64,000 nt of DNA from a virus. The notes below the pieces were generated by a model. It saw only the letters and a list, made by a program, of their open reading frames with translations. It had not been told where the DNA came from and ran no database searches. The first letter of the stretch is position 1. Every line of letters begins with the position of its first letter. Position numbers and translations under genes: made by a program. The stretch is taken from positions 1 through 64,000 of IMG/VR virus record IMGVR_UViG_3300021170_000017. The stretch is one strand, 5' to 3'. Positions 29,673 to 54,600 of the stretch are shown piece after piece.

Positions 29673-30452
29673 TCAAGCGGAGGTCTTCTCCTGCACCGCG
29701 ATGACACCCTCCTCGAGCGCGGCTTTCTCGACGTCCTCCGCCGTGAACCCCAGTCGCTGCGCGAACTCGAGACCGACCAGCGGCAGCATCTGGCGGGTGA
29801 GTGCGTGCAGTTTGCCGGTGGGCACGTTCTGGAACTCCAAGGTGTGATGGGTGTGCTTGTGGCTGTGGCGCTCGACGATGAGTTTCTCGGCGAACATGCC
29901 GTACTGCCTTCCTAAGCTGGTCAAGTACAGGTGCTGCTCGCGGATGGTCGGCAGCCGGTAGGAGATGCGATCGCCGCTCGAGCTCGTGATCTCGACCACC
30001 GCCCGCTGCTCTGCGGTCAGTTCCGAGTAGGGCTTCAAGCGTTCGGCGAACACCGGCTTGCCGTGCCACTCGACCGTGCGCTCGGTCGCCTGCTTGGCGC
30101 CTTTCTCCTTGACCCACTCCGTGAGCGGCTTTTCGGACATTTCATAGAACTCGGTCGGGTCGTAGAACACCCGCTTGACCATGCCCTGCAGGACCGCCTC
30201 ATCGTCGATGGCCAAGCGCTCGGCGATGACCTTGGCCTTGGCCTCTTGGATGGGGCGCAGATAGTCGGCGAACTTCTTGAGCTTGGCGAGGGACAGGCGA
30301 CTCGCGGCCGAGCGTGCAGTCGTGTAGCCGGCTTCGCGGTAGGCGCGGTCTTTGTCGAAGTGGTGCAGCCAGCGCTCGCAGAAGACCTTGTCCTGGTCGG
30401 TCTGGGGACCCAACTGCCGGGGGCGTTTTTTGATCCCCTTGCCTCGCCCCAT
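29673..30452 (-). CDS. terS: terminase small subunit
   Basis: 259 aa. DQDKVFCERWLHHFDKDRAYREAGY is the N-terminal HTH-like segment of TerS proteins (shown here in two parts: DQDKVFCERWLH and DKDRAYREAGY). The centre (RLPTIREQHLYLTSLGRQY) and C-terminal helices would form the oligomer core and TerL contact. It recognises the packaging site on phage DNA. Two genes upstream of TerL in the same leftward operon. Confidence 0.8.
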   Translation of the reverse strand: MGRGKGIKKRPRQLGPQTDQDKVFCERWLHHFDKDRAYREAGYTTARSAASRLSLAKLKKFADYLRPIQEAKAKVIAERLAIDDEAVLQGMVKRVFYDPTEFYEMSEKPLTEWVKEKGAKQATERTVEWHGKPVFAERLKPYSELTAEQRAVVEITSSSGDRISYRLPTIREQHLYLTSLGRQYGMFAEKLIVERHSHKHTHHTLEFQNVPTGKLHALTRQMLPLVGLEFAQRLGFTAEDVEKAALEEGVIAVQEKTSA

Positions 30453-30721: not shown

Positions 30722-30957
30722 AGCAGGTGTTTCCAGGCCCGGCCCAAGATGATCTCGCGGATCCGCTCGTAACTCACGCCGTATTCCCGGCTCAAGCCGC
30801 GGTAGCCAAACTGGGGGTCACGCGGGACATAGACCTTGCGTATCCGCCGCACCTGGTGGGCGTACAGTTTGGCCTGCGGGTTGCGGCGCCCCTTCGTGCG
30901 CGCCCGGGAAAACGGGGTCGAGGACTCTCCACCGCTGCCTATATGGATCACCGTCAT
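30718..30957 (-). CDS. helix-turn-helix type small DNA-binding protein
   Basis: 79 aa from the ATG at 30957 (ATGA overlap). YRGLSREYGVSYERIREII is an HTH followed by LGRAWKHL, a pattern common in phage HTH domains, often attached to HNH nucleases, that end 'I-x-x-x-W-K-H'. The basic leader (RARTKGRRNPQAK) would aid DNA binding. May regulate the packaging operon. Confidence 0.75.
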   Translation of the reverse strand: MTVIHIGSGGESSTPFSRARTKGRRNPQAKLYAHQVRRIRKVYVPRDPQFGYRGLSREYGVSYERIREIILGRAWKHLL

Positions 30958-31580
30958 CGCGGCACGTAGCTCCGCAGGTAGGCGGTGATGATCAGCGCGG
31001 CAGCCTCCCAGCCGTTCGCCACCTCGCAGCGCCATCCCAGCGCGAGCATGCGCTCGTGAAAGGTCTTCTGGTCATCCGAGGCGCCAGGCCCGCGGGTGCG
31101 CTTCATCTCGAGCCAGAGACCCGGACACTTCGTCGCCCAGATCGGCACCGGCAGGATGTAGTCCGAGGCGCCCGGCTGCGTCCCCATGGCCTTCAACTTC
31201 CCCATCGTGATGCCGCGGGTCTTCTTGTCGGCCCCCAGGTAGGCACCGTTGGGTACGTGGATCAGATAGTCTGAGACCAAGCCGCCGGCGAAGCGTTGCG
31301 TCTGCGCCCAGTCCATCAGCCAGCGGCACTCCTCGTACTCGAGCGGCACCGGCAACTGCGGCGTCCTCGCGCGTCTCGCCACTTTCGCCTTTTTAGCAGG
31401 CCGGATCTTCTCTGGCACCGGCGCCCCGTGGTGATCGCGCTTGAGCCCGTCGGCGTTCTCCATCGCCTTGACGGTCTCGGCCGGCAGCCCGCGGCCGCTG
31501 TTCTGCTGGAACTTGGCAAGGTTCGCGTCTTGGCGCGCCCGGATGTCAGCTAGGTCCTGTTCGGTGTAGCGGTATGGCAT
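30954..31580 (-). CDS. VRR-NUC domain nuclease
   Basis: 208 aa. The C-terminal half carries the VRR-NUC pattern: HVPNGAYLG, GASDYILPVP with the acidic Asp, LWLEMKRTRG as the E-x-K catalytic pair, DDQKTFHERMLALGW and the ending helix. VRR-NUC enzymes cut structured DNA such as Holliday junctions or flaps. The N-terminal half is a charged linker (AKKAKVARRART). It may resolve replication intermediates before packaging. Confidence 0.8.
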   Translation of the reverse strand: MPYRYTEQDLADIRARQDANLAKFQQNSGRGLPAETVKAMENADGLKRDHHGAPVPEKIRPAKKAKVARRARTPQLPVPLEYEECRWLMDWAQTQRFAGGLVSDYLIHVPNGAYLGADKKTRGITMGKLKAMGTQPGASDYILPVPIWATKCPGLWLEMKRTRGPGASDDQKTFHERMLALGWRCEVANGWEAAALIITAYLRSYVPR

Positions 31581-34943: not shown

Positions 34944-37900
34944 TCAAGCAAATGCCTCCAATGATTGCACCACGCGCGGTCGCGGCTGTTCGGGCAGTGA
35001 ACGCCACAGTTCAGCGAAGGCCGGCATCCCGGCGTCGCGCAGGGCAGCCGCTGCGTCATCACGGCTCCTCCCCTCTATCAGCGACGAAATCTTATCCGCG
35101 GCCTCACGGGCCTTGATCTTGTCCTGCCGGATGTCCCGCTCGGTACCGCGCTCCTTCAATTTGGAGTCACGGATCTCCTGCCGCAAGGCTTCGACTTCCT
35201 CTTTGTCGCCCTTCTCGGTGGCCTTTTTAAGGCGCATCTGCAGACCCCGGATGTAGGACTTCTCCGTCTCCCGCATCTGGTAGCGATCCATCTGCTCAGG
35301 GGAGGTGACCCGGGCTGGCGCCGGGCCAAACCCGATGTACGGCATGGTCGAGAGCACCTTGCCGCGCGCGTCCATCTCGCCCGCGCCTACGAACTGCTTC
35401 GTCCCCTGAATCGAGAACGGCACGACCTGGCGCGCCCCGTAGGCGAGGCTCTGCCAAGTCTGTTTCTCCCATGAGTCGTCTGGGAACCGGATGGCGTTGC
35501 CGAAGAAATCCTCATTGGCATAGATCGAATGCAGGATCCCGAAGAGCGGGTTCGCCTTGTTGATCAGCGTGGTCACCGGCTGGGTGCCGTACTCGTACAG
35601 GTCCTTGGTGTAGGAGGGCATCGAGATGCGTTCTTTGGTCCCGTACTTCGTCATGCGCCCGGTCCACGGGAAAAAGTAATCCTTGAGCTCCTGCGGCCCT
35701 TTGCCCGTGAGCAACTGCTGAATGATGGCCCCAACAATCATGGTCGTACCGATGAGCGCCAGCGTGTACGGGATCTTGTGCCCGACCTTCTCCGCGACGC
35801 GCTGCAGTTTGGACTTCTGCGCCTCATAGTCGAGCCGCGCTTGGGATGTCTTCGAGAGCGGCGCCGCGGGCAGTTCCGCCGGCGCCCCGCGCGCCATGTA
35901 GTCCAAGAGCTTGACCACGTCGATGGGCGCGCCCCCGAGTTCGCGGATGGTGCCTAAGTTCCACCCCACCGCCCGGACCATCATGTGGTTGACGTCCTTG
36001 AACGTGCGGTTCCAGAAGACGTTGTCGTACACCATCTCGCCTAAGCGGTTGTCGACCGAGTTCCAGATGCGCTGCATGGCACCGGCGAAGGCGACCGGGT
36101 CCTCGAGCGGATTCCTGCGGATATGATCAGCCGCCAGGTCCGAGAAGACGCCCAGTTTCTGGAGCGGCACGATGTGCTCCATGATGATGCTGGTCGACGC
36201 CCGGGTCATGCGGCCGGCGATCTCGAGGCCGGACATGATGGGCAGCACTTTGAGCGGCTCCAACTGCCAGATTTGCTCGAGGTCACGCCATAGCCGCATC
36301 GCGTACTGCTGCGGGAAGGAGGTCAGGACCTTGGTGAGCGACTCGACCTCGCCGCGCGGTTTGGTGAGCGCCGCCTTGACGTCACTCGCCAGCGTCGCGA
36401 ATCCCACGCCCTTGAACGGCGAGAGCCCTTGCGCGGCCTGGAAGTAGTTGTCCATCTTGACCCGGCCGCCGGCGGCGGACAGGCCCTCGACGATGCGGCG
36501 CATCTCGGGGCTCGCGGTTTTGGGATCCACGTAGGCCCGCATCAGGCGCTGGCCACGGATCAGGTTCATGGCCGCCCCGCCGATGCCGGTCGATGCCTCC
36601 AAGAACGCGGCCACGGCGCGCAGCGGCTCGCCGTGCGCCAGCCGCTCGATGGCGAGGGCATTTTTCGATATAACGGCATCCAGCGTGGTGAACCCTAAGT
36701 GAAACGCCGAGAACCCCAACTGCAGCGCATTGGCAGCGTTCGACATCGCGCGAAAGATCTGCGCCGGCAGGAAATTGCGCAGCGCCGAGCTCGACAGATG
36801 ATTGTTGATCACCCGCGCGGCGTCGACCGGCATGATGTACTTGCCGCGCTCGATGAACCCCTGCTCGGTCTCGCTCCACTGCCGGACGCGCCCGACCGCG
36901 TCATTGATTTCAGCCCAGTCATCCGGACGAAGCTTGCCGCTCGGGAGGAACTTGGCCAGCCCCTCGTCCTTGAAGCGCTGCATGAGTTTTACGCCGGCGT
37001 AGAAGCGCTGCATCTCGCGCAATTTCGCAAAGGCCAGAACCAGCGGGTTGGTGCTGATCGGCGTCAAGCCTGCCTCGAGGCCCTCTTTGGTCGTCGGGAT
37101 AGTCCGCTCTTTCAGGAACGATGCCGGGCCCTTGAGCGGTCGGCGGCCGAAGATCTGGCCGAATATCTTTTTGGCCTGCGCGTCGTTTTGCCAGATGTGA
37201 GGAAAGTAGTTCTCGATGAAATTGTCGAGCGCGCCTACGCCCAGGCCGCGGATGTTCTCCCGCCAGCCGTCGAGTAGCTTGCGGATGGTGTCCGCGGCCG
37301 GTTGCAGATCGGGGCGCGTCGGCCGCCCGCCCTCCATCGCGTCGATGAAGTCGTACCGGTCCTGCGTCCCCAGCAAGTCGAATTGCTTGGAGTAGCGCTC
37401 GAGGTCCTGCAGCGCCGCCTCCGAAGCCTGCGCGAGCTCGCCCAGCGCTTCCCTGGTCACTAGGGCCGTCGCCCGGGCCGGCTCCGACACGCCGGCAGGA
37501 TCGGCGATGCGGCGTAGCGATAGCGTGAACTCGTTGTTCGGGATGGCGGCGACGGCGCGTCGCACCAGAGCGTAGGCGCCTTTCTTGGGTGAAGGCGGCT
37601 CGGTCCCCGCGCTGCCCTTGCGGCGTTTCAGGAACATCGGCTGACCCGCCATGACACTATCCCGCATAGCGGGTGTGATGCGCACCATGTGGGCCGGTAC
37701 CGGCGGTGAGAGCGACTGCGCAGCATCCAACGCGGCGACATGATTGGCCAGGAAGTGACGCTGCTCGTTGGTCCCTGACTGCATGATCCGCTGGTATTGT
37801 TCCTCAGCGCCTTCGTGCGGCAGGTTTTGCGAGTCCTGCCAGCGGCGAAGCCCCTCGCTGAGCTTAGTCAATTGAGACTCTCGGCCAGAATTCTCGACTG

Positions 37901-40900
37901 GCAGATTTCCAGCCTCGACCTTGCCGCCCCACTTCTTGACCAGTTTGCCAACGGTCGCCGGCAGGATCTTGTCGTAGAAGGACTTCATGCCTTCGCCGCC
38001 GACCTTGAGGTCGAGGCCCTCGTACTTGACTGCTGGCAGGCCCGGCGGCTGATTGGCGATCTTGACTGCCATCTCCTTGCCGATCAGGCGCTCGAGCGCA
38101 GATTCCTGGACCTCACCGTTGTGGATCGTGCCGCCGGCCTTGTTGACGATGTGCACCGTGTAGGTATTGGACTTCTCGCCGCCGTGTACATGCTTGATCG
38201 CGCCGATCTTGCTGACGTGGTTCTGCAGGTTATAGCGCTCGGCATTGGTCTCCCCGGTGTCCCACGACACCGCGTCATAGCCACGCTCGGCCGCGTAGCG
38301 CAGCATCCGCTTCATGGCGAGCTCGGGCCAGGTCGTCTTAAATGGCGCGTTGGGGACAGGCGCCCCGGTCGATCGCGACTCATTGCGGATATCCATATTC
38401 ACCCGCGCCAGGGCTTCGCGTAGTTCCGGGGTGGTCCGCAAAAAGGCTCGGTGAGTACCTACCGCGTCCATGGCGTCCTGAGCCGTCGGGAAGATCACCT
38501 CCTGGTTGAAACTGCGGCGGTGGCTGCCCTCGTCCATGACCATCCAGCCCGGCTCGCTGATCCCGCGCAGCACCGTGACCTCGCCCTGAGCCGTCTGCGC
38601 CTTGTAGAGCACGCCCTCGTGGCCTTCCTGGTGGCTCTGCAGATCCTCGCCCTCCTCCCACTCGAGCGGCGCGCGGGTTTCTTCAATCTGCCGCTCAATG
38701 TCCGCCTTCTTGTCCTGGAGCGCCTTGAGCGCGGTGTCCTCCCCGACATAGCCCTTGCGGCGTCCCTCCTGATGCCAGTCCGACTGCACCTCGTGGACGT
38801 GCAGGACGCGCTCGCCGTTCGGGCCCACCCGGTCATCGAAGCGCACGTGCGCCAGCACGTTCTTCTGATCCCAGTGGGGGCTGTCATATGCTTGGGCCCG
38901 CAGCTTTTGCTGTTCGGCGTAGTAGGCATCGTGGCGCGCGCGGAGCTCCGCATAGCGCTGCTTCATGGCCGGCGAGAGCGCCTGCTTGGCGAGCAGTTTT
39001 TCGTACAGGATGGTGAGCTCACCATTCTCCGGACCAGTCAGGAAAGGCGTTTTGGCCTCGCGATCGAGCTTCATCAGGAGCTCGCGGTAATTCTCCCCGC
39101 CTGGCGTCTTCCACTGACTGTACTGCGTCATCCCGGTTACTTCGCCCGGCTCGTTCGTTTCATAGAACGGCGCCATGAGTTTCTCAGGTACGCCGTGCGA
39201 CTCGAACTCGCCGATCGTCTCCTCATCACCGCCCATGGCGCGGGAGATCGCCTGGTTCAAGTCTTCCATGGCCGACGGGTCCAAGGCATCGACCTCGCCG
39301 TGTTCGAGGAACCACTGGCGCAGCGCATGCTCATCGGCGCCCTTACCGCCCATGCCGAAGAGTTCCTCACCCAATTGCACGCGATGCGCATTGACGTACT
39401 CGGCCACCTCGTCCTTGGTGACCCGGCCACGGCCCTCGAGCCAGTCCTTGAGGCCGGTCCACTGGATCTCCTCCGCCTTGACGCCCGGCATGTTGCGTAA
39501 GGTCGCCTCCCACTCGGCGCCGGTGCCCTTGTCGCGCTTGGCGGCGTCGACCGCTTTCGCCAGGCCCGAGTAGAAGGTATCCTCAGGACCCGCGAACGCT
39601 GGGACAGCATCGGGACCGCCGTCTTTCGTCTGGGTTGCGGTACCCCGGCGTAGGAATGACTCGAGATCCCCCAGCGTTCGCTTCACGAAGAGGTCGTCGA
39701 ACTTCTTCGGCAGCCCCATGACACTCCGTATCCAATCCCGCAGCATTCCCATCAGACGGTCGAGCCATCGCTTGGCTTGGGCCGGTACCGACTGATCCGC
39801 CGCATAGCGCTGGCCGTAGTAGGCGAGCACCTCCTCCGCCGCGCGATTGCGATGGTGGGCATTGAGAGGATTGAACGTCCCCGGGAACTCCGACTGGCCA
39901 CGGGCGCGGAACTCCGCCGGCATGGCCTTTCTGATCCCGTCCAAGATCGCCTGATATCGGGCATCACGGGTATCACCAAAGGCCGCGCGCAAGCCGTAGT
40001 GCGTGATGTACTCGTGGGCGATCGAGGAGATCACATCTTCCGGGCCCTCGAACTGGTCGCCCACCAGGTAGATCTTGTTCGTCTCCGGGTGCATGAACGC
40101 GATGACATCACCCGGGTCCTTGTCGGCAAGGTCGCTGGCCAGTGCCGGGTCGCGTTTGAGCTCGGCCAGGTTCTTGGCGATGACAACGTCCGGCTTAACC
40201 CCGAAGCCGCCGATGAACTTATCGACCGTCTGCCGGATCTCGGGCGTAGACATTGACGGCTCAATTTCCCCGCCTTCACCGCGGCGGTAGAGCACCGACT
40301 TCTCGCCGTCCTGCTTGGTCTGGAAGGTATCGACCAGGCGCTGGATGGCCGCATTGATGGCCGGTCGATCCTCAAGCGGATAGGGATTGCCCTTGTAGCC
40401 GGTCGCATAGCGCTCGCCCTCGGCGCCCTGGACCAGGTAGTCGCTCTGGTTGCCCTCAGCCTTGATCTTGTCTTGGACATAGCCCTCGAAGGCGCGCGCG
40501 AACATCTCCGTCGGCCGGCGCCAATACTCGCCCAGCGCTTGGGCATTCCGGATGTAATGCGTCGGTCGCTCGCCGAAGGTACCTTCCGGATTCGCCCGCG
40601 CGCCCTCGATGCGCTTGCGCACGTCGGGGATCTGCACATCGTTGAGGAACGACCGCTGATTGTTGAGGGCCGGGTCGCCAGGGCTCGTCTTCAACATCTC
40701 GTCGATACGGTCGATGCGCGCCCGCATGTTCTCGAGCGACAGTTCGCCATCGCGGATGAACTCCGCGGCGCCTACCTTGCGCTTGAACAGCGCCTCCATG
40801 ACCCCGTTCCAGGCTTCCTGCATCTCGGGGCGCAGATGGGCGAGCGAGCGCCGATCGGCATACCAGCCAGACGCACCGCGAGCGCCCGTCGTGTAAGCAT

Positions 40901-43900
40901 CCGAACGGCCGAACTCGCCCATGTAGTGATCGAGCGCATGGGCCCATTCGTGTGCAAGCGCGCCGGCGCCGTTGATCTTGGTCATGTTGATGACCAACTT
41001 GCCGGGCTCATAGTGCGCCGCGAACCGGCCGCCGCCTCGAGCTCCGAGCGCGAGGCCCATGGTGCCGTTCAAGCTCAGCGCCTTCGGGGGCAGGTTCATG
41101 ATGCGTGCCAGGTCCTGCAGGCCCTCATAGGCATAGTTGAGCAGCCGCTGCCGCTCATCGTTCGCCGCCCAGTTACCGAACTCAAGGCCACGGAAGCCTA
41201 AGTCCTTGACGAAGTCGGTGCTGGTCACATCCCCGGTGCGCACGGGCGGCCCGATGCGGTTGATCTCGTCCAGGTGCGGCCGCTTGGGCTCCGGCGGACC
41301 TTTGTCCTTGACGACCGCGCCCGGTTCGGCGGCCTCCTTGACCTTCTTCGCGGGCCAGCCGGCGGCGAGCAGCTGGTCCGCCTTGCGCTGATCGCTGTAG
41401 GCAATGTGCAGCGTCGAACGGCGGCCTTTCTGAATGGACCAGAACTTATCCCGCGCTTCTTTCTCCTCCGGCGTCGACGCAATCGAGTAGCCGCGGGGCA
41501 TCTTGAGTTCGGTCGCCAGCGCATTGCCGATCTTGCCGATGTCCTCCGGAGTGTCGGCCGCGAGCATCATGTCGCGCACCCGCCCCATGATCTCGACGTA
41601 ATGCCGGCGCCCTTCCGGGGTATTCATGCGCGGCTTGGCGGCCAACTGGTCGAACAGCACCTTGGCCATGGCGAGGGTCTTCGGGCTATGACCGTCGTCG
41701 ATCAATTGCTGCCAGTTGGGGTTCCAGACGGCCTTCTTGTTGACCAGCGTTGCGGCCTCGCCTTCCGACATGCTGGAGAGGTCCGCGAGGCGCATGCCGC
41801 GCTCCGCCCATTTGTCCTTGCGCGCGCCACCGATCTTCTCGCCGGCGTCCTCGAGCGCCCCGGTCGGCTTGATACCCAACTGCTGTTCAACGGCGGCCAA
41901 TCGCTCGGTGACCGTCTTCGGCACATCGGTGAGATCCGTCTGCTGACGCGCCTGGCTGAAGAGGTCCCCGGGCTTGCCGGTCTCGACCGACTCTTGTCCC
42001 GTGTTGCGCTTCTTGTCGAGCGCCGCCTCGAGCTTCTTGATCTCGTTCTTGACGTGATCGACCGCACCGAAGAGGTCCTGCTGCACACCCGGCGGCTTGC
42101 CACCGCGCTGGAACGGGATCCGGTCGAGCTCCTCCTCCGACTCGGCCTCGGTAGCCAACCCGGCGCGTTCAATCTCCCGCTCGAGGCGGTCCTGCTCCTG
42201 GCGCAGTTGCTCGAGGCGCGCCACGGCCTGGTCGACCGATAGCTTGGCGAGCTCGGCATCGCTCAACGGCGTGCGCCAGTCTTTGGCCGCCTCCGGCAGG
42301 CGTGAGTCGTTGTGGCTGGAGAAGTGCTGCTTGCCGCGCAGTTCGTCGTCGATGCGGTCTAAGAGGACATTCGGCGAGTAATGACCGTGCTCATCGGTGA
42401 CCGGATAACCTGCCTCCGCCAGCGCTTCCGCTGCGTGGTCGAAAGACATGCCGCCTGCACGGAAAGCTCTCTTGATTCCAACATGAGCAGCTGCAAGCCG
42501 CATATCCGCGGGGTCGACACCCTGGGATCCAGCTTCTTCGCTATCCAGGCCACGCGGATGGCGAGCCAGGAATTGGAGAATGCTGTCGTGGTGAGGATCT
42601 GGGCCAGGAGATCGTTTAACCGTGACGCGCGGTACCGACTCGGGGTCGATGGGCTTGGTGAGGTCGCCCTCTTTGAGCCAGCGCTTGAGCTGGGACGGGG
42701 ACAGTTCCGTAATGCCCCCCAACCCTTTCCAGTCTTTCGGGTAGTGGGATAGATACTGAGCCCGAGCCTCCGCCTCATTACGTACGCCAACTTGGACCTT
42801 GTGCTCATCGAACTCACCCTTCGGGTTCAACTGGTCGATCACATAGGCTTTGTCCGCGTCCGCGTGCGGGCCCATCATGATGTCGATGCCGTCTTCGTCG
42901 GCACCTTTGGTCCCCGGAATATACCCGTAGTCGGCGCGCATCAGGCGCTTGCCCGGCTTGCCGGTCCGCGCATCGACGAACCGCCGGTACTGGCCCTTCG
43001 TGTTCTCAATCTTGATCGGCAGCCCGTGCCACTCGACCGACGGCTTGAAGTAATTGCCGGCGGCCGCCTGCGGGCCGGTGGGGACGTCCGGCTTGCGCTT
43101 TACTTCTTGGCCGAGGACTTCGGCGGCAGGCGCACCCCCACCAGCCGGAAGCCCTGCTTCACGAGCCCGGATGCTCGCGTTCGGAGGCTGTTCTCCGCGG
43201 GCAGCACGGACGCCTTCGGCTTGCCGTCCTTGCTTGGCGGCGTTGAGGTTGCCTTCGGCTTCTTCGAGTGTGGTGCCTGTGCCATGGGAGAGTCCTACCC
43301 CTTTGAGTTCAATGGTGCGGCCGTCCGGATGCGCAAACGTGAGTGTTGCACCATCGAGACGCGCCTTCGCTCGAGCCATGGCCGCCTCTGCGGCCGCATG
43401 ATCGTCGCCTTGGACGACGAATTCGTCCCCCGAAATATGATAGGCATTGCCGCCTGACTCCTCGTGCAGCGCCTGCGCCACGGTCTTGAGCAACTGGTCG
43501 CCGCCCTCGTGGCTCGCGTTGTCGTTGATCCACTTGAGTGAGTCCACGTCGACCGACACCTGCGACGGCTTCTTGGCCGAGTCCTCATAGGCCCGGCGGT
43601 TGGGGATCCCGGTCAGCTCGTGCGTGAGGAGCGCGGCCTTCATCTGCTCCGGCGTCATCTGGTCGACGCGCTGGCGCAGGCCCGTGGCGGAGCGGCGTTC
43701 GACCTGGGCAACAGGCTGCGTGCGCTCGAGCTCGGTCTCAGGCGCCCGCTCGCCCGTTTCAGTAATGTCCTTAAAAGTTGCAGGTTTACCCTGTTTCGTT
43801 TCACCTGAGGGAGCTTTTGTTGCACTGGGAGGCGTTTCCGTCTCACTTGCGGCGGGTTTCGTACCCACGACCTTGCGCGCCTGCGCCATCGCCTGGCGTG

Positions 43901-45773
43901 CCGCTTCGACGGTATCGAACTGGGCAACCGGCTGGCCTTTCACATGGACCGACCAGCCTTCTTCCTCGGGCTCGAGGGTTACATCCGACCGCTTCTCGGC
44001 CGCGGCCGCCGCGGTATTGAGTGCGTCGACCTTGGCTTGATACGTGGCCCGAGCACCCGCGGCGCCGGTTGGCGCCTCGGCACCGGCGGCAGCGGCGCCT
44101 CCGCCGGCAGGACCAGTTCCTCCAGGTCCAGGCGCAGCCCCCGGCGCGGCGGCTCCCGGGCCTCCTCCAATTCGGGGAGTGCCGCGAGGAGCGCCGCCAG
44201 CGCCAGGAGATGTCGGTTCATAGCGATGCGTGTCCTCGTTCCATTCGTAGCCGGGATAGGTTTGCCCTGGCTTCATCTGCGGGCCGCCCATGGCATCCGA
44301 TGCCGCCTTGACGCGGTTCAGGAGCTCATCGGCGTCCAGGTCCCGCCGCGCCTGCGCTGCTCGAGCGCGCTCCGGCGCCCCCATGGCGTCATGCGCGATC
44401 GCGATCGGCGCGGCCGTTATTGCGGACGTGACGCCCGTGTAGGCAATGTCTTTGAGCGCATCCGAGAGCGTCGTCTGCTCGTGGACGATGCCGGTATCGA
44501 CCGCCTTCTGAATCGACGCCTGCAACATGCCACCGGCGCCGTTCGCGACCATGGTGCCCGCAATCCGCCCACCGGCAGTCTGGCCCACCGCGGCGCCCAC
44601 GATGCGGTCGAGCACCGCCTTGCCGGCCGGCGAGCGGGAAAGGACCGCCGAGACGGGGATGGCGCCCGCCGCATCGCCCACCGCATAGAGGAAGCCGGCG
44701 GTGTTGGCGATCTTGTCCGAGCTCGCCGCCAGGTCAGCCGCTTGCTGCCGGAGATCATTCGTGACCGGGTTCAAGCCGCGCTTGCCGCCGATCGGCGCGG
44801 CGTCATCTAACTGGTCCGCCTTCTCGAGGATGCGACTCACCTGGTCATCGATCTTGTTCTTGGCGTCCTCGCGTTGCGCCGGCGCAAAGAGTGCCGTCGC
44901 CGTCGCAGCACCGGCGCCCATGCCGACACCCGGACCGCCGACGGCAGTCCCGGCGACCGTTGCGCCCGTCACGGCCGCGAGATCGGGGATGGCGAGCGCG
45001 GCGTTGAAGGCGATGCCCTTGGCGCTCCACGGGTCGAGCTTGCCGTTCTTGAGGTCTGAGGGCTGCCAGACGCGCTCATCGGCCCAGGCTTGGTTGCGAG
45101 TCCCGCGGCCGGCGGTCACATTGTCGCGGCCCGCCTCGAGCGTCGCCTGCGCGCGCGCCGCGTTGTCCGCCTGCTGCTCCGGAGACAATCCCGATATCGC
45201 ACTCCAGTCACCGGCGAACTCCTGCGGTGAGATCCCCAAGGACCGCGCCGTCTTCTGCACCAGCGGATCCTTGGCGAGCTGATCGGAGGGGACGATGCCC
45301 TTGTCCGCGCCCATCCGGGCCGCGACCTGGGGCAGGACATTGAGGGCCGCCGCCTGCCGCTCGGCGCTCTGCACCTGCGCCGCACCCGTCGTCTCCTGAT
45401 ACCCGGCCTTGAGCTTGCCGAACTCAGCACCGACCAGGTGCGGATAGGCCGTGGCCAGCGTCGAGACGTCAGGCCCCGACGTGAACCGGTCCGCCTCCTC
45501 GCCCACCGATTGGCGCAAGGACGGCAGGATGCCGGTCACATAGCGCTGGTCGGTATCCGAGGGGCTCGCGGGTTCGTGGCCGAACAGCAGTTCCTTGCTG
45601 CGCTGGAGGAGGCCGATGGAGTTATCGACCGGATGTGCAGCCGGATCCTGATGCGGCCGGACGAGCGCCGGGACCGATGCGGTATCGGGTCCGACCGGCT
45701 TCCACGGGTCTTGCGCGGGGGTCGCGGCCGGCGCTTGAGTATCGGCACCCTGAGCAATCCAGCCGGCGCCCAC
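34944..45773 (-). CDS. giant polyvalent virion protein, probably ejected with DNA
   Basis: 3609 aa, GTG start, one unbroken frame. Order by approximate residue: glycine-zipper-like N-terminus (about 255-295, GTAVGGPGVGMGAG) and low-complexity Pro/Gly linker (~550); GGDEF-like domain (~715-850: TGIPNRRAYE, VDVDSLKWIND, SGDEFVV); pyrophosphatase-like InPase domain (~900-1045: RADYGYIPG, DEDGIDIMMGP); a phage domain (~1050-1150) and coiled coil (~1190); LPD1 (~1500-1750) with zincin motif HEWAHALDHY (~1608); a second HEYITH site (~1921); a domain with VHEVQSDWH (~2327) and YDAVSWDTGE (~2505); and an LPD38-like C-terminus (~2720-3609) with one membrane-like helix (~3340). This matches polyvalent proteins of large phages, thought to enter the cell with DNA and act on the host early. 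It follows two internal virion protein genes and precedes lysis genes. Confidence 0.85.
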   Translation of the reverse strand: MGAGWIAQGADTQAPAATPAQDPWKPVGPDTASVPALVRPHQDPAAHPVDNSIGLLQRSKELLFGHEPASPSDTDQRYVTGILPSLRQSVGEEADRFTSGPDVSTLATAYPHLVGAEFGKLKAGYQETTGAAQVQSAERQAAALNVLPQVAARMGADKGIVPSDQLAKDPLVQKTARSLGISPQEFAGDWSAISGLSPEQQADNAARAQATLEAGRDNVTAGRGTRNQAWADERVWQPSDLKNGKLDPWSAKGIAFNAALAIPDLAAVTGATVAGTAVGGPGVGMGAGAATATALFAPAQREDAKNKIDDQVSRILEKADQLDDAAPIGGKRGLNPVTNDLRQQAADLAASSDKIANTAGFLYAVGDAAGAIPVSAVLSRSPAGKAVLDRIVGAAVGQTAGGRIAGTMVANGAGGMLQASIQKAVDTGIVHEQTTLSDALKDIAYTGVTSAITAAPIAIAHDAMGAPERARAAQARRDLDADELLNRVKAASDAMGGPQMKPGQTYPGYEWNEDTHRYEPTSPGAGGAPRGTPRIGGGPGAAAPGAAPGPGGTGPAGGGAAAAGAEAPTGAAGARATYQAKVDALNTAAAAAEKRSDVTLEPEEEGWSVHVKGQPVAQFDTVEAARQAMAQARKVVGTKPAASETETPPSATKAPSGETKQGKPATFKDITETGERAPETELERTQPVAQVERRSATGLRQRVDQMTPEQMKAALLTHELTGIPNRRAYEDSAKKPSQVSVDVDSLKWINDNASHEGGDQLLKTVAQALHEESGGNAYHISGDEFVVQGDDHAAAEAAMARAKARLDGATLTFAHPDGRTIELKGVGLSHGTGTTLEEAEGNLNAAKQGRQAEGVRAARGEQPPNASIRAREAGLPAGGGAPAAEVLGQEVKRKPDVPTGPQAAAGNYFKPSVEWHGLPIKIENTKGQYRRFVDARTGKPGKRLMRADYGYIPGTKGADEDGIDIMMGPHADADKAYVIDQLNPKGEFDEHKVQVGVRNEAEARAQYLSHYPKDWKGLGGITELSPSQLKRWLKEGDLTKPIDPESVPRVTVKRSPGPDPHHDSILQFLARHPRGLDSEEAGSQGVDPADMRLAAAHVGIKRAFRAGGMSFDHAAEALAEAGYPVTDEHGHYSPNVLLDRIDDELRGKQHFSSHNDSRLPEAAKDWRTPLSDAELAKLSVDQAVARLEQLRQEQDRLEREIERAGLATEAESEEELDRIPFQRGGKPPGVQQDLFGAVDHVKNEIKKLEAALDKKRNTGQESVETGKPGDLFSQARQQTDLTDVPKTVTERLAAVEQQLGIKPTGALEDAGEKIGGARKDKWAERGMRLADLSSMSEGEAATLVNKKAVWNPNWQQLIDDGHSPKTLAMAKVLFDQLAAKPRMNTPEGRRHYVEIMGRVRDMMLAADTPEDIGKIGNALATELKMPRGYSIASTPEEKEARDKFWSIQKGRRSTLHIAYSDQRKADQLLAAGWPAKKVKEAAEPGAVVKDKGPPEPKRPHLDEINRIGPPVRTGDVTSTDFVKDLGFRGLEFGNWAANDERQRLLNYAYEGLQDLARIMNLPPKALSLNGTMGLALGARGGGRFAAHYEPGKLVINMTKINGAGALAHEWAHALDHYMGEFGRSDAYTTGARGASGWYADRRSLAHLRPEMQEAWNGVMEALFKRKVGAAEFIRDGELSLENMRARIDRIDEMLKTSPGDPALNNQRSFLNDVQIPDVRKRIEGARANPEGTFGERPTHYIRNAQALGEYWRRPTEMFARAFEGYVQDKIKAEGNQSDYLVQGAEGERYATGYKGNPYPLEDRPAINAAIQRLVDTFQTKQDGEKSVLYRRGEGGEIEPSMSTPEIRQTVDKFIGGFGVKPDVVIAKNLAELKRDPALASDLADKDPGDVIAFMHPETNKIYLVGDQFEGPEDVISSIAHEYITHYGLRAAFGDTRDARYQAILDGIRKAMPAEFRARGQSEFPGTFNPLNAHHRNRAAEEVLAYYGQRYAADQSVPAQAKRWLDRLMGMLRDWIRSVMGLPKKFDDLFVKRTLGDLESFLRRGTATQTKDGGPDAVPAFAGPEDTFYSGLAKAVDAAKRDKGTGAEWEATLRNMPGVKAEEIQWTGLKDWLEGRGRVTKDEVAEYVNAHRVQLGEELFGMGGKGADEHALRQWFLEHGEVDALDPSAMEDLNQAISRAMGGDEETIGEFESHGVPEKLMAPFYETNEPGEVTGMTQYSQWKTPGGENYRELLMKLDREAKTPFLTGPENGELTILYEKLLAKQALSPAMKQRYAELRARHDAYYAEQQKLRAQAYDSPHWDQKNVLAHVRFDDRVGPNGERVLHVHEVQSDWHQEGRRKGYVGEDTALKALQDKKADIERQIEETRAPLEWEEGEDLQSHQEGHEGVLYKAQTAQGEVTVLRGISEPGWMVMDEGSHRRSFNQEVIFPTAQDAMDAVGTHRAFLRTTPELREALARVNMDIRNESRSTGAPVPNAPFKTTWPELAMKRMLRYAAERGYDAVSWDTGETNAERYNLQNHVSKIGAIKHVHGGEKSNTYTVHIVNKAGGTIHNGEVQESALERLIGKEMAVKIANQPPGLPAVKYEGLDLKVGGEGMKSFYDKILPATVGKLVKKWGGKVEAGNLPVENSGRESQLTKLSEGLRRWQDSQNLPHEGAEEQYQRIMQSGTNEQRHFLANHVAALDAAQSLSPPVPAHMVRITPAMRDSVMAGQPMFLKRRKGSAGTEPPSPKKGAYALVRRAVAAIPNNEFTLSLRRIADPAGVSEPARATALVTREALGELAQASEAALQDLERYSKQFDLLGTQDRYDFIDAMEGGRPTRPDLQPAADTIRKLLDGWRENIRGLGVGALDNFIENYFPHIWQNDAQAKKIFGQIFGRRPLKGPASFLKERTIPTTKEGLEAGLTPISTNPLVLAFAKLREMQRFYAGVKLMQRFKDEGLAKFLPSGKLRPDDWAEINDAVGRVRQWSETEQGFIERGKYIMPVDAARVINNHLSSSALRNFLPAQIFRAMSNAANALQLGFSAFHLGFTTLDAVISKNALAIERLAHGEPLRAVAAFLEASTGIGGAAMNLIRGQRLMRAYVDPKTASPEMRRIVEGLSAAGGRVKMDNYFQAAQGLSPFKGVGFATLASDVKAALTKPRGEVESLTKVLTSFPQQYAMRLWRDLEQIWQLEPLKVLPIMSGLEIAGRMTRASTSIIMEHIVPLQKLGVFSDLAADHIRRNPLEDPVAFAGAMQRIWNSVDNRLGEMVYDNVFWNRTFKDVNHMMVRAVGWNLGTIRELGGAPIDVVKLLDYMARGAPAELPAAPLSKTSQARLDYEAQKSKLQRVAEKVGHKIPYTLALIGTTMIVGAIIQQLLTGKGPQELKDYFFPWTGRMTKYGTKERISMPSYTKDLYEYGTQPVTTLINKANPLFGILHSIYANEDFFGNAIRFPDDSWEKQTWQSLAYGARQVVPFSIQGTKQFVGAGEMDARGKVLSTMPYIGFGPAPARVTSPEQMDRYQMRETEKSYIRGLQMRLKKATEKGDKEEVEALRQEIRDSKLKERGTERDIRQDKIKAREAADKISSLIEGRSRDDAAAALRDAGMPAFAELWRSLPEQPRPRVVQSLEAFA

Positions 45774-45774
45774 G

Positions 45775-47067
45775 TTACTGCCTCGTCAGCGGGCCGCTGC
45801 TCACCTGAGTGGGCTGGCCATCGATGCCGATGGTCCACTTCCCCTGCGCGCCGAAGTCGCGAACCATGCCCGGCTTCAAGCCCTGCAGAGCCTGGGGCGG
45901 TGGCTTGTTGCCCGGCTGCACAATGGGCGCGTTCGCTTTGGTGACCGCGCCGGCGCCGTACTGATCCAAGATGTACTGGTCGGCGACGCGCTTCGCCTTC
46001 TCATCATCGCCCATCGTCGCCTGCATCACCGACTTATAGATCGCCGCATGGTCCGCGTTGACACTGCCGGTCTTGGGCTTGAACGCAATCTTGGCGGCCG
46101 TGTCCTGGTCCATGCCGAGCACATTGGTCAGGTACTTGTGGGTGCGCACCGCGGCGGGGTCCTGGTTCGACTTGTCGATCCCGGAACCGGCTTCCTTGCC
46201 GAGTACTCGTCCCTGGAAGGGCTTGCCGTCGATGCCGGTCACGGGCTCCGCGTGCGCATGGCCGTCCTCATCACGCACCAGCGTGTGAATGACGCCACCG
46301 GGCCCGACCGCGTAGGTGGCGGCGCCCATCCCGGCGGATTTGGTGGCCGTGGCGCCAGCGATGTCCTTGAAGGCGCCGGCCACGTTCTTGGTCTCGGTCG
46401 TCTCATCGAGATTGCGCTTCTCCTGAGCGGCCATCGCGGCGGCCGGCGTACCGATCCCGGCCTGTTCTTTCGCGCGCGCGGTCTCGATACCCTGCGCCTG
46501 CGTGTCATACGCCTTCTGCTTGTCCGCAATCTGTCCCTGGTTGGCGTCGTGCTGATCGGACATGACGCCCGCGAGCACCGCGCCCTGGTTGGTCGTCGCC
46601 GGCGCGGAGGCTTTCATGAGGTGCAGGCCGAATTCGAGCAGCGCCGCGAACTTCTCCTTCTTGGTCTGCGGTTCATCGTCCGACGGGCGAGCGCCCATCT
46701 GGGACTTCATGTTGTCGTACTTCTCGTCGATGTCGCCGTGCTGCTTCTGCCACCAATCCATGTAGTCGGTGCGCGACTGCGGCTTCATGGCATTCAAGAG
46801 GTCCAACGTGGTCTGGGCCTTGGCGAGCTTCTTGGGGTCGTACTCGGGCTTGACGTCTGGAGTGGCGATCTCGCCCTTGCCCGTGCCCTGCTGGATGGTG
46901 CGGCCCGGCTGCGGCTGTGACAGCGGGGGAGCCGCGCCGGCGCCGGGTGCGGCTGGCTGCGACGGGGAGGCGGCGGGACCCGGCGGCTGGCCACCCTGAA
47001 TGGGCGGCATCGACGGCTGCTGGACGTCGGAGAGGTCCGGATCGGGAGCGATGGTGCCGGCGGCCAT
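45775..47067 (-). CDS. internal virion protein-like
   Basis: 430 aa. Pro/Ala/Gln-rich first 75 residues, then a long helical region (LLEFGLHLMKASAPATT; MDQDTAAKIAFK) and a C-terminal strand-rich end (MVRDFGAQGKWTIGIDG). No catalytic motif. Position directly upstream of the polyvalent gene and composition suit an internal core or ejection protein. Stop and the giant's GTG start lie one base apart. Confidence 0.65.
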   Translation of the reverse strand: MAAGTIAPDPDLSDVQQPSMPPIQGGQPPGPAASPSQPAAPGAGAAPPLSQPQPGRTIQQGTGKGEIATPDVKPEYDPKKLAKAQTTLDLLNAMKPQSRTDYMDWWQKQHGDIDEKYDNMKSQMGARPSDDEPQTKKEKFAALLEFGLHLMKASAPATTNQGAVLAGVMSDQHDANQGQIADKQKAYDTQAQGIETARAKEQAGIGTPAAAMAAQEKRNLDETTETKNVAGAFKDIAGATATKSAGMGAATYAVGPGGVIHTLVRDEDGHAHAEPVTGIDGKPFQGRVLGKEAGSGIDKSNQDPAAVRTHKYLTNVLGMDQDTAAKIAFKPKTGSVNADHAAIYKSVMQATMGDDEKAKRVADQYILDQYGAGAVTKANAPIVQPGNKPPPQALQGLKPGMVRDFGAQGKWTIGIDGQPTQVSSGPLTRQ

Positions 47068-47070
47068 GGC

Positions 47071-48114
47071 CTAGCCCCCCTCGATCGATGGCATGGTGGG
47101 CGCTTGACCCGGGTCGACCGTGATGTTGGAGAGACTGTTCGAACCCGTGGTCGCACCCGAATCGTACATCCCCGCGCCAGAAGACCCCATCGGCGGCGCA
47201 CCCGAGCCGCTCGAGGAGCCGCCACCGAAGAGGCCGGCAACCGTGGAACCCAACCCCAGCAACTGATTCGCCGTGTTCGACTGAATGGCCGGCGTCTGCG
47301 CGGGACTGCCCTTGGCACTGCCGACCGCAGAGATCAGCGAGCCCAACTGCTGCGCGCTCCAGTTCTGCTGACGCATGAACTGCGCGTACTGATTCGAGAG
47401 GTCGGTCTGGGCGATCACCTGGGCGACACCGCCCGTCTTCATGAGATCGCTGATCTGCGAGGAGGTCATGTTGGTGACGTCCATCCCCGCCTGTTCGTAG
47501 GCACTGGCCGCCGCCAACTTCTGCTGGTTGTCCGACTGCCAGGTCGAGATCGCCTTGTCGTAGGCGTTGGCGTTGCCGGTCGCCGTCAACTGCCCCACGT
47601 TCAAGTTCTGATCGGCCGCGAGCTGGCCCTCTTGGATGGCCTCGCGACTATTGCCGAATGATCCCGACCCCGCCGCACCGCTCTGGATGCCAGCCAAGCT
47701 TTGCAGATACTGCTTGTTCGAGGCCGCGACCGACGCATCAGTGACCGCGGCCGTATAGGGACTCATGTACTTGGAGGCCGTATCGGCGTTCCAACCGTTA
47801 TTCGCCACCTGACTGATGAGCCCGGTCGCTTGCTGGTTGTCGCCCTGGGCGATGCCATTGGTCGCGGTCGAGGACGCCAGGCTGTATGCCTGCTGCTGAT
47901 TGCCGGACATGGGCGCGGTCATCGTGCCGGTGTAGGGCGTGAACGGCTGTTGGGCGACGTTCTCCGCCTGGTTCAACATGCTGCCTTGCGCGCCCGCCAA
48001 CTGCGCCGCGCCGGCGTTGTTCTTCTTGGCCGCCGATGCGGCCGACTGGTTGCTGGCGATGCTCTCGCCCGCGTCGATCGCCGCGATACCTGCTGAGACC
48101 CATCCGGCTGGCAT
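47071..48114 (-). CDS. internal/ejection protein-like, Ala/Gln/Ser-rich
   Basis: 347 aa from the ATG at 48114 with CAGGG upstream. Long Ala/Gln/Asn/Ser-rich helical repeats (SNQSAASAAKKNNAGAAQL; GQLTATGNANAYDKAIS), with Gly/Ser-rich ends. This composition is typical of podovirus internal or DNA-transfer proteins. A longer upstream frame is ignored. Not recognised to family level. Confidence 0.65.
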   Translation of the reverse strand: MPAGWVSAGIAAIDAGESIASNQSAASAAKKNNAGAAQLAGAQGSMLNQAENVAQQPFTPYTGTMTAPMSGNQQQAYSLASSTATNGIAQGDNQQATGLISQVANNGWNADTASKYMSPYTAAVTDASVAASNKQYLQSLAGIQSGAAGSGSFGNSREAIQEGQLAADQNLNVGQLTATGNANAYDKAISTWQSDNQQKLAAASAYEQAGMDVTNMTSSQISDLMKTGGVAQVIAQTDLSNQYAQFMRQQNWSAQQLGSLISAVGSAKGSPAQTPAIQSNTANQLLGLGSTVAGLFGGGSSSGSGAPPMGSSGAGMYDSGATTGSNSLSNITVDPGQAPTMPSIEGG

Positions 48115-48116
48115 TG

Positions 48117-48767
48117 TTACCCTGCCTCGGCAGGCGGCGCGGCGCCCGCATAGTGATAGTCGTAGCACACCGGCTGCTGCAGTCGCATGCAGATGATGAG
48201 CGTGATCCGCTCCTCGTTCGTCGGGTTCTCGACCCAGTGCGTCTTCGAGTTATCGAAGGCGAAGAGATCGCCGGGCTTGGTCTCGAGTTTGTAGCCCTCG
48301 TAACAGAACTTCTGGCCCTTGGCCGCCTTGATCTGGACGCCGAATTTGAGGTAATGCTCGGCGTGCCAGCCCTTGTCGATGTGCTTGCCGACGCTGCACT
48401 TGGGCGGTATGCGCGTAATCAGCACCATGCCTAACCGCTCGGCGTAGAACATGCGCATGAGATCGAACACCAGCGGTTGCAGGTACGGTAGTTTGTCGTA
48501 CGCGCCCCACCACACCGATTCATGCTCGCCGTTGAAGGCCGCGCGATCGCCCGTCCAGTCCTTCCAATCACGGAAGCGGCAGATGATGTCGGAGATCTTC
48601 TGGTGCGGGTTGCCGCCGTAACTGCCCTCGGTACGGAACACGTTCTGGTCCCAGAGCTCAGGCGCAGCATCCAACTGCTGGATCAATGGGGCCACCACCA
48701 CATTGCGGTGCAGGATGCGGATAGGGCGCTGAATCTTGGTGACGCTGACTTTGAGTCTGGCGTTCAT
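48117..48767 (-). CDS. aspartyl/asparaginyl beta-hydroxylase-like dioxygenase
   Basis: 216 aa from the ATG at 48767 (ATGA overlap). H129-x-D131 (GKHIDKG) and a distal H177 (SKTHWVEN), with R187 (ERITLII), are the Fe(II)- and 2-oxoglutarate-binding residues of the cupin-fold Asp/Asn beta-hydroxylase family. KPGDLFAFDN is the usual strand before the second His. It would hydroxylate a protein or small molecule. The neighbouring gene encodes a sulfotransferase-like protein, so both may modify a virion or host-surface component. Confidence 0.75.
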   Translation of the reverse strand: MNARLKVSVTKIQRPIRILHRNVVVAPLIQQLDAAPELWDQNVFRTEGSYGGNPHQKISDIICRFRDWKDWTGDRAAFNGEHESVWWGAYDKLPYLQPLVFDLMRMFYAERLGMVLITRIPPKCSVGKHIDKGWHAEHYLKFGVQIKAAKGQKFCYEGYKLETKPGDLFAFDNSKTHWVENPTNEERITLIICMRLQQPVCYDYHYAGAAPPAEAG

Positions 48768-49291
48768 GCACATGCCTCGATGAGTCGTTTGCGGAAGTCC
48801 CGTACACGGACGGGGTCTATCCGGACTTTATCGAAGCAAGGCTCGACGTGCATCTCGCAGAGCTGCGCATGGCGGTGCTCGTCGAAGTTCCGCTGCACCA
48901 GGTGCTCATAGATCGGCCGCGCCGTGACCGCGTTGAACAGGTCCTCATACTGCACGTGCATGCCCTCGAGGCGCTCGAGCGCGCCGCGCCAGAGCGAGCC
49001 CAGCGGGGTCAGACCCAGCGTGACCAGCGAGCGGTTCACGTCGTCCAAGTCACGGTGCACGATCACCTTGCGGGCTGGATGCGTGTTGACGAACGCCGGC
49101 AGGAGACCTAAGGCCGTGCAGGAGATGCCGAGCATGCGCCCGACGTGGATCTGGTCCAAGAGCTCGGGACGGTGTTCGAAGACGGGGTCGTGCAGGCAGA
49201 GCGAATGCTCGGTCGTGAGCCAATTGGCCGCCCAGGTGCTTGCGGAGCGAGGCGCACTCAAGACCATGAACTTGACCAAGGAGGTCTCCAC
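48764..49291 (-). CDS. sulfotransferase-like P-loop protein
   Basis: 175 aa with a GTG start. SAPRSASTWA (12-21) matches the 5'-phosphosulfate loop PRSGSTW of PAPS-dependent sulfotransferases, and VIVHRDLDDVNRSLVTLG matches the 3'-phosphate motif (R-x-P-x-D-x-x-x-S). The fold is shorter than the usual 250-300 residues, so it may be a minimal form. The donor would be host PAPS. Coupled by ATGA to the hydroxylase gene. An in-frame ATG nine codons downstream is possible. Confidence 0.65.
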   Translation of the reverse strand: METSLVKFMVLSAPRSASTWAANWLTTEHSLCLHDPVFEHRPELLDQIHVGRMLGISCTALGLLPAFVNTHPARKVIVHRDLDDVNRSLVTLGLTPLGSLWRGALERLEGMHVQYEDLFNAVTARPIYEHLVQRNFDEHRHAQLCEMHVEPCFDKVRIDPVRVRDFRKRLIEACA

Positions 49292-51609: not shown

Positions 51610-54600
51610 CTACCGCTTCGCGTAGGGCGTCGCCAAGCCCTGCCAAATTCCCATCCTGAAACTCGAACCCAAGGAGGGCGCGCCGCCCGGGCCCGTGTAG
51701 TTGTCCAATTGGATGACCACCTGGCTGCCGTGCGCGTCGATGTCGATCTGCCCCGTGGTTTCGGTGAACAGCACCGGGCCCTCCTGGACGTAGGTCTGAT
51801 CCTGCGGCCGGTCCTTGGTCAGGAGCGTCAGGTTCATGGAGCCGGTCATGTAGGCCCAGTCCGGCAGCATCGAGCGAATCAGCAAATGACTGTCCGAGCC
51901 GCCGATGGCGAAGCGCGCATCCGACCCGCCCATGGTGTACTCGCTTTTGGCGCCGCCGACCGTGATGTCTAAGGACTTCATGAAGAAGCCGATCGCTTGC
52001 GTGCCAAACGCTTCGACCGCATCGATGCCGACCTCGTGCTGGTAGAGATACCCAGCATTCACCCCGTAGGGATAGCCGTTCATGGCCGGCGCGCGTCCCG
52101 CCGCGCAGGTGCGCTGCCAGTACCCGTAGAACCAGGTGCCGTCTTCCCAGTTGAAGGTCACATAGCGGTCATTGCCGATGAAGAGCGCGGTACCCGCCGC
52201 GATGGGGCTCACCAGCGGCAAGTTCCAGGTGGCGTTCGTCTGACCATTGGTCAAAAGCACCGGCCGCGACTCCTGGTCCGAGAACTGCAGTTCGTAGTAC
52301 CCCGTGCGCCCGGTCCACGCCGTGGTGAGGCTGCCGGAGGTCGCCCACTGCTGGAGGATGCCGTTGAAGGTCACGGTAAAGGCGCCGTCGATCGACTGGT
52401 AGAGCCAGGTGATCTCGGTCTTGGGTTCGTAGGTGTAGCAGACGACGCCTTCGGACTGTGCACGGTTCAAAGCCGTATGGAAGCCGGTGCTGTCGACGTA
52501 ACTGGGGTCGAACACCGTCTCCCAGACATCGCAGGCTTGCAGATTCAGCGTGCCTGAGTAGTTGTAGAAATTGTCGAAGCCCCAGAAGTAGGCGACGCCG
52601 TCGACGTCGACTGCAGCGTTCGGCCCCACGATGGTCACGCCACCCGCGGGGATGAAGTCGTACTCGTCCGGCTCACCCACGAACACCATGCGGTAGAGCG
52701 TGGTGTCGGTCCAGATCAGGTTCTGGCCCTTGGTCTTCAGGCCCGTGACGATCCGCGAGCCCGCGGTCAGGAGGTCATCGCCGGCGGTGTTGATGTCGGT
52801 CGGTACCCAGTCGGTGATGTCGTCGAACGAGCACCAGCGCACGAGGAGCGGATCGAAGGCCGAGGTCACATCGGTGCAGCCCAAGGCGATGATCACCCGC
52901 TGCTGGGCGTCGACAATGACGCGCTGGCACCCGGTCGGCGCCAAGGGGATGATCCCGGCCCGGCTGTTAGGTCCCGTGTTCCGCTGCCACCAGTAGATCT
53001 CGCCATCCGACTGCGAGGCGATCAGGTCCTGGCCATAGTTGTCGAGCGACCAAGTGCGCATGCGCGCGAACACTCCAGTACCGATGGCGCGCGCCGTGCC
53101 GTAGGTGCCGGCGCCATACAACCCCGTGCCGTAGCCCAAGAGCTGGCCATTCGCCGGCAGGCCCGTGGTGATCTCATAGGCAATCGAGAAATTGCCGCCG
53201 CCAGTCGCGCTCGAGACCGCCGGCGACGCCGCGAAGATGGTGTAGGTGTTGGGGTCGATAACCGAGAGCTCATAGCTACCGAGTAGTTGCAGGCCGCCGA
53301 CCGGGGAGGCACCGATGATGTCGATGAAATCCCCGCTGTTCGCCTGATGTCCTGGGTCCACGATGCTGACGATGTTCGAGTTCGCGAACGTGGTGAGCGC
53401 ATTGACGACGTTCGAGGTCTTCCTCTGCGGCGTGATGTCGTAGAGCGTCCCCTGGTTGACGACGTAGAGCTTTAAGTTTGTGCCGATGGCAATCCAGTAC
53501 TGGCCATCGAGCGAGCTCCAATCATGGAGATCTCGAGCGAGACCCGCATAGATAGACGAGGAGAAGCCGGAGGGCGGCGTCGAACTCCCCGTGGTGTTGG
53601 GCAGGCCCAGGGTATTTTCGGCCGTGGCCGGCGTGTAGGTGGTCGTATAGAGCGCCAGGCGCGTCAATCGTACCTCGTCGATCGCGCCGGCGAAGGACGT
53701 GGTCCAGCCGCCCGCCACCGCCATGCTGCCACCGGCCGGGCCGATGTTGCCCGCGTAGGAGAGCGTTCCGGCCGAGACTCCCCCGATGTAGAGGGTGAAG
53801 GTCCCGCCCTGCCGGACCAGCGCGACATCGGTCCAAGTGTTGAGCGCAACCGCGCCGCTGGTGATGTTGCCGTAACTGGATCCGGTCCAGATGAAGGCTT
53901 TGACCGTGCCCGCCGCCGTGTACTCGAGGTAGAAGCCGGCGGTGTCACCGTTCGAAGCGTCGAACAGCAGGCCCAGGACCGCCGAGGTCGGGTAGATCCA
54001 GAACTCCAAGGTGAAGTCGGTCTGCGACAAGTCCAAGGGCGTGCCCACCGTCACCGGCGTCGAGACTTCCGCGGTAGCCCCGTCCGACTGCAGCGCGCCG
54101 TTGCCGAACTTCGGCGTCGCGCTGTCCGAGGTCGCGGTCGAGCTCGCCGTCATCGGCCAGTTGTAGAAGGACGCATCGCTCGGCACCAAGGTCGAGCCGC
54201 CGATGTTGGGCGACAGCGGCCCGGCCGGCGCGTAGTTCGAGGTGTAAACCGCGGCCTTCGAGACCCGCACTTCGTCCAAGTTGAAGGGCGCGAAAGTCAC
54301 GGAGGGCGCGCCACCGAACAGCACTCCCGTGGGCGAGGTCGGGCTATTGGTGCCCCAGTTGGTGGCCGTCGTGCCGAGCGCCGTGCCGTTCAAATAAAAA
54401 GTCGCCACCGCGCCGTGGCGCACCAGAGCGAAGGCGTACCAGGTATTGGCCAACAGCGTGGCCACCGTATTCGAGAAGCCGGACCAGCCGCTCACATTGG
54501 TCGAGATCTGGATATCGGTGCTGTTCGGCACGGAGATGACGACACCGGGCGACCCGCCGTTCATGTTGCCGTAGTCGACGATGGTGAAGACTGCGCCAAA

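Follow-up and report, generated by a model that had tools for sequence, protein, structure and literature searches.

The polyvalent proteins of phages were defined as a class by Iyer et al. (2017, PMC5512222), and GGDEF, inorganic pyrophosphatase (InPase), MPTase and LPD domains are named there in such chains. Giant phage proteins have also been studied experimentally. Sp5 ORF80 (2,793 aa) is essential for plaques and lysogens although mutant heads and DNA packaging are normal, and it was assigned to tail assembly by its authors (PMC5155283). Mass spectrometry of CsCl-purified virions detected the DarB-like giant JC1 gp69 (4,515 aa) by 51 unique peptides (PMC9144972). According to the literature, the N4 virion RNA polymerase is likewise a giant phage protein with a zincin that is delivered with the DNA. 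In this work, a giant protein was analysed that is encoded in the first 64,000 nucleotides (the window) of a virus record of 65,544 bases.

The giant gene, its neighbours and its described relatives

The giant gene occupies positions 34944-45773 on the minus strand. It is a stop-free frame of 3,609 codons with a GTG start at 45773, and the homologue P0002 has the same start. A single open frame of this length had been claimed in a preliminary description and is borne out, with the strand now added; the length is far beyond chance. Directly upstream lies a 430-aa gene (45775-47067, minus strand), which is found in the same place in locus L006 (62%) and ends one base from the GTG. Two genes upstream of the giant gene, a 365-aa protein (47071-48168, minus strand) matches phrog_4287, 'DNA ejection protein' (E 1.5e-13), which gives partial support to the earlier statement that the gene adjoins internal virion protein genes. 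Downstream, also on the minus strand, are a 208-aa gene (30954-31580), whose position between giant gene and terminase is the same in L006 and L007, and the terminase small subunit (29673-30452; phrog_51 and synteny) and large subunit (27341-29011; phrog_38, E 2.4e-63; 81% identical in L006). L006 shows the same succession of the 430-aa gene, the giant gene, the 208-aa gene, TerS and TerL, and L007 shares the downstream part of it. The giant gene thus lies close to late virion genes, as in the polyvalent class.

The capsid protein of the window is closest to those of HTVC023P/CRP-901-type phages and some cyanobacterial phages (~35-48% identity). No giant gene is listed in the gene tables of the stretches examined of HTVC023P and CRP-902, both capsid/terminase relatives, so these phages may fill the core role in another way. 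In a further phage with a related capsid (L260, MW202675.1 30000-61219), a match to the EVQSDWHQ region described below and other large proteins are separate genes in the portal-capsid interval, as if a polyvalent protein were split. Elsewhere in the window, an aspartyl/asparaginyl beta-hydroxylase-like protein (PF05118, E 7.2e-7) is encoded at 48117-48773 (minus strand) within the tail/ejection gene cluster, and a 1,405-aa virion protein, encoded at 51610-55827 (minus strand), has three stretches of the Laminin_G_3 (concanavalin A-like) type. A segment of ~70 residues, GTTGPYVVTFSDNE...LTNGQTTAIW, occurs at 57740-58621, 52183-52386 and 62486-62653 (all minus strand) and is common to three proteins, an SU10-adaptor-like one, the 1,405-aa virion protein and one of 310 aa next to the major capsid gene.

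The window protein (P0001) carries several unrelated enzymatic domains together with LPD and MPTase domains on one chain. Judged from its diagnostic InPase and LPD1 domains, its two zincins, its place in a late operon and its relatives, which are found in virions or are essential for infectivity, it is well supported as a phage-type polyvalent protein sensu Iyer et al. (2017), as had been proposed. It shares with the class, as described in PMC5512222, the giant chain with unrelated enzymes, the zincin MPTases, InPase, LPD1, GGDEF and the late-gene position. It differs in that Pfam LPD38 is absent and that its C-terminal and EVQSDWHQ modules have no Pfam family; moreover, a recurrent side-by-side GGDEF-InPase pair is not mentioned in the passages of PMC5512222 examined. 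Since the class and the domains were already described there and a 5,279-aa virus protein is similar, the terms 'new system' and 'unusual domain set' in the preliminary description were overstated. The latter protein, from IMG/VR 3300004007_000017 (L046; full frame L572), combines SLT, GGDEF, InPase, LPD1, helicase and LPD38 on one chain. Its GGDEF is directly followed by InPase, as in the window protein (40% identical over both), and then by zincin-LPD1; what it has in addition are the SLT transglycosylase, the helicase, which is of the strawberry-notch type, and Pfam LPD38.

The better-studied giants resemble the window protein over shorter stretches. The family phrog_616 (2,793 positions) matches it at residues 1505-1625, and from the equal length and a homologue in Escherichia phage phi296, Sp5 ORF80 appears to belong to this family. 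ORF80 and the 2,800-aa phi296 protein share with the window protein a zincin-LPD1 followed by zincin 2 in a late giant gene; on the other hand, no GGDEF or InPase was detected in the phi296 protein by the profiles built here, and LPD38 is present. The Bcep22-like DarB-like giants (JC1 gp69, phrog_10089) are also giant late proteins but longer, and the likeness rests on a match of phrog_10089 (4,647 positions) to residues 495-1042. No RNA polymerase domain was detected in the window protein, in which it differs from the N4 enzyme. The data on JC1 gp69 and Sp5 ORF80 support the view that the core serves in the virion or in delivery.

The GGDEF domain and its pairing with InPase

The GGDEF (diguanylate cyclase) domain spans residues 700-861 (43191-43676, minus strand) and is supported by GGDEF matches in the PDB, by alignments and by Pfam (residues 719-849, E 3.8e-8, 33.7 bits against a cut-off of 23.8). 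The signature is SGDEF at residues 781-785, and D742, N750, H755 and D759 are kept in the alignment with PleD. In the C-terminal KxxR motif (847-850), the Lys-Arg spacing is one residue shorter than in PleD, as it is in other phage copies; the PleD counterparts are presumably K442 and R446. The RxxD inhibitory site is absent from the aligned window domain. The general GGDEF model of NCBIfam (TIGR00254) scores 30.0, below its cut-off of 37.4, so the domain is a divergent copy. With a profile match above the curated cut-off and its catalytic residues, it nevertheless has the sequence features of a GGDEF diguanylate cyclase. In another phage frame (L652, 632-9967), the SGDEF hairpin of the GGDEF domain (about residues 917-1090) precedes the DxD...IND motif rather than following it, and this domain is possibly a circularly permuted GGDEF.

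The phage-type InPase domain (residues 896-1041; 42651-43088, minus strand) is identified by PF18823 at residues 902-1034 (E 1.5e-41, 141.9 bits against a cut-off of 26.8) and by alignment, in which D959, D961, D964 and the FDEHK motif at 988-992 are conserved, as in the polyvalent InPases. Residues 914-1043 also match the C-terminus of a phage gp19 portal (PDB 9b41), and InPase-portal fusions are noted in PMC5512222.

Eight divergent giant proteins, the window protein included, have GGDEF and InPase as immediate neighbours, five in the order GGDEF-InPase, with linkers of ~33-68 residues, and three in the order InPase-GGDEF. The eight frames measure 1,294 to 5,279 aa, several of them cut by locus ends, and both domains are confirmed by Pfam in the window protein, L572, L577, L589 and L652. 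These cases do not give a frequency, because the search query was the aligned pair itself, from the window and L046. GGDEF was absent from all of ~118 frames, many of them incomplete, in an InPase-motif sample that had not been selected for GGDEF, and the pair is therefore uncommon. In the InPase tree, the paired cases need at least six changes, and forcing them into a single clade costs 36 log-likelihood units, which is not rejected (AU p 0.125). That both domain orders exist implies that the pair was rearranged or was joined a second time. The synthesis of c-di-GMP releases two PPi, and the side-by-side arrangement suggests a cyclase coupled to the removal of its by-product. A further conjecture, which we hold to be doubtful but possible, is that phages repeatedly assemble an injected cassette of a feedback-insensitive GGDEF and a PPi-removing InPase, which would be freed by the protein's own zincins and would give a burst of cyclic dinucleotide at DNA entry.

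The zincins, LPD1 and the modules without a Pfam family

The preliminary description had named two HExxH sites. Only one is an HEXXH (H1608, in HEWAHALD); the second is an HEXXXH (H1920, in HEYITH). The zincin 1 module covers residues 1512-1829 (40287-41240, minus strand; Pfam, alignments and model) and includes LPD1 (PF18796, residues 1748-1820, E 6.5e-17). It shows the features given in PMC5512222 for a common MPTase clade of phage polyvalent proteins, namely HEXXH (H1608/E1609/H1612) with an Asp three residues later, a conserved preceding His (H1587) and, in a helix further on, a Glu (E1756). In the AlphaFold model (pLDDT ~90), a helix, three strands, the HEXXH helix, a helical insert and the Glu helix follow one another, which is the MPTase element order described in that paper; the best PDB match of the zincin model is a zincin, although a weak one. 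The zincin 2 module (residues 1834-2060; 39594-40274, minus strand; alignments and model) has E1980/E1981 as candidate third ligand. Its predicted element order is that of zincin 1, so the AlphaFold check suggested earlier came out in favour of both sites, and it corresponds to the HEXXXH variant of polyvalent zincins described in PMC5512222. The NCBIfam model CLCA_X (NF041907) matches the start of zincin 1 (residues 1506-1646; window 40836-41258) with E 3.7e-35, below its cut-off, which suggests that a cellular family shares this fold.

LPD1 was matched in 51 of 57 aligned sequences, most of which had been collected by the motif HEW[AG]HALD; the window protein and its duplicate account for two of the rows. 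An HExxHxxD helix lies upstream in all nine LPD1 matches found with the Pfam model, eight from records selected by the InPase motif and one from a bacterial genome. Of 54 rows, 53 have the Glu of E1756, which lies inside LPD1, and conservation at the HEWAHALD positions is almost equally strict. In all cases checked, LPD1 thus comes after an HExxHxxD helix. Together with its near-invariant Glu, this makes it resemble the C-terminal half of a zincin, and from the alignments and the model it is probably part of this fold.

The N-terminal region (residues 1-680; 43734-45773, minus strand), Gly/Ala-rich at ~255-300, occurs only in close relatives, and its residues 282-349 have a weak YtxH-like Pfam match below the cut-off. 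A 'mid' region (residues 1060-1500; 41274-42596, minus strand) is conserved in other phage proteins as well, there too ahead of zincin 1. With our own profiles, the order InPase, mid, zincin 1 and zincin 2 recurs across motif-fetched loci, some of which also have the EVQSDWHQ and C-terminal modules.

The EVQSDWHQ module (residues 2064-2712; 37638-39584, minus strand; profiles, alignment and model) shows enzyme-like conservation, as more than 20 positions are invariant in all 52 rows covering them, and at least 120 matching stretches were found in each of two collections. Its 53 members gave only scattered singleton matches in Pfam. The core of its fold is well predicted; matches to PDB folds are weak and none is significant, and those in a viral structure library are mostly other uncharacterised phage proteins. 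Its resemblance to GNAT acetyltransferases is not significant: the hhalign probability against 29 GNATs was 1.2%, the best of six modules, and the PDB fold matches were weak. Phages thus commonly carry this enzyme-like domain, for which Pfam has no family. The C-terminal module (residues 2745-3500; 35274-37541, minus strand; profile searches and hhalign) includes the only strongly hydrophobic, membrane-helix-like segment of the protein (residues 3333-3357; 35703-35777, minus strand). The preliminary description had called the C-terminus LPD38-like, which is not upheld. PF18857 has no match in the window genome or its closest relatives, whereas the same search was positive in 5 of 20 related records, and hhalign of the module against five LPD38 segments gave a probability of 0.3%. 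GGDEF, InPase and LPD1, named in the same description, were all found by the profile scan.

Module exchange, proposed role and alternatives

The homologue P0002 (3,232 aa, in L006) covers residues 5-3609 of the window protein, with 67% identity in the best segment. The dN/dS between the two is about 0.1-0.35 across six regions, ~0.12 over residues 2712-3609, the most conserved part, and ~0.3 elsewhere, so that in this comparison with a relative having the same neighbours the giant protein is under purifying selection. P0002 lacks the GGDEF block, and residues 1512-1829, the HEXXH and LPD1 together, are missing as one unit. Both parts therefore behave as cargo modules, and GGDEF is dispensable for the basic role. 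A nucleotide search with 25 kb gave no near match among phage records, tblastn of the C-terminal 910 residues against phages gave no match, and a first-round search of genome contigs with the whole protein gave no relatives. The contigs L132 and L004/L005 encode a protein identical to that of the window and are thus not independent; L132 forms one redundant row in alignments A2 and A3.

We hypothesize, and consider it fairly probable, that this is a polyvalent protein of a tailed phage that is built into the particle, delivered with the DNA and cut by its zincins, with the cyclase and InPase acting in the cell. It would be made late, from an operon with an ejection-protein-like gene and ahead of the terminase genes, and would join the virion, as we infer from JC1 gp69 and Sp5 ORF80, so that the 'likely packaged' of the preliminary description is a reasonable expectation; the conserved C-terminal module and the single hydrophobic helix are the likely structural or membrane part. 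Once the protein has entered with the DNA, its chain would be cut by one zincin or by both (HEWAHALD with the LPD1 Glu; HEYITH), and the domains would separate. The GGDEF domain, with its catalytic residues kept and no inhibitory site, would then synthesise a cyclic dinucleotide, in the simplest case c-di-GMP made from GTP, and the adjacent InPase would remove two PPi per c-di-GMP and drive synthesis forward. A further substrate of the InPase may be the PPi that early phage RNA or DNA synthesis releases.

The label 'multi-weapon early-infection protein' covers only part of the picture, because the Sp5 relative is essential despite normal heads and packaging (PMC5155283); the core may be an essential virion part with the enzymes as exchangeable cargo. 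The same result would fit an essential structural or ejection protein, mainly a virion part or DNA-delivery conduit, whose enzymes are relic passengers with little or no activity, and so would the strong conservation of the C-terminal region (dN/dS ~0.12) and the gain and loss of modules between relatives. We consider such a relic state unlikely, as the GGDEF and InPase catalytic residues are kept across copies ~40% identical or less and the zincin motifs are near invariant.

It is more improbable still that the enzymes serve counter-defence, the GGDEF product flooding or decoying a host cyclic-nucleotide sensor and InPase targeting a nucleotide signal rather than PPi. Interference of GGDEF with host cyclic-nucleotide responses and nucleotide-like InPase targets are indeed proposed in PMC5512222, but no matching defence locus was identified, PADLOC (a library of anti-phage defence) gave no match in the window protein, and PPi removal is the simpler account of the side-by-side pair. 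A late protein outside the virion, active only within the producing cell, is hardly to be expected given the late operon with its ejection-like gene and the virion proteomics (PMC9144972) and genetics (PMC5155283) of relatives.

With the GGDEF-InPase pair, seen in both orders in divergent phages, the vague notion of a 'multi-weapon' protein comes down to something that can be assayed simply on 356 residues. If LPD1 is indeed the C-terminal half of a zincin, a domain so far described as elusive would gain a function. The polyvalent class is known, and its enzymes may act in the newly infected cell; the pair and the reading of LPD1 add to it.
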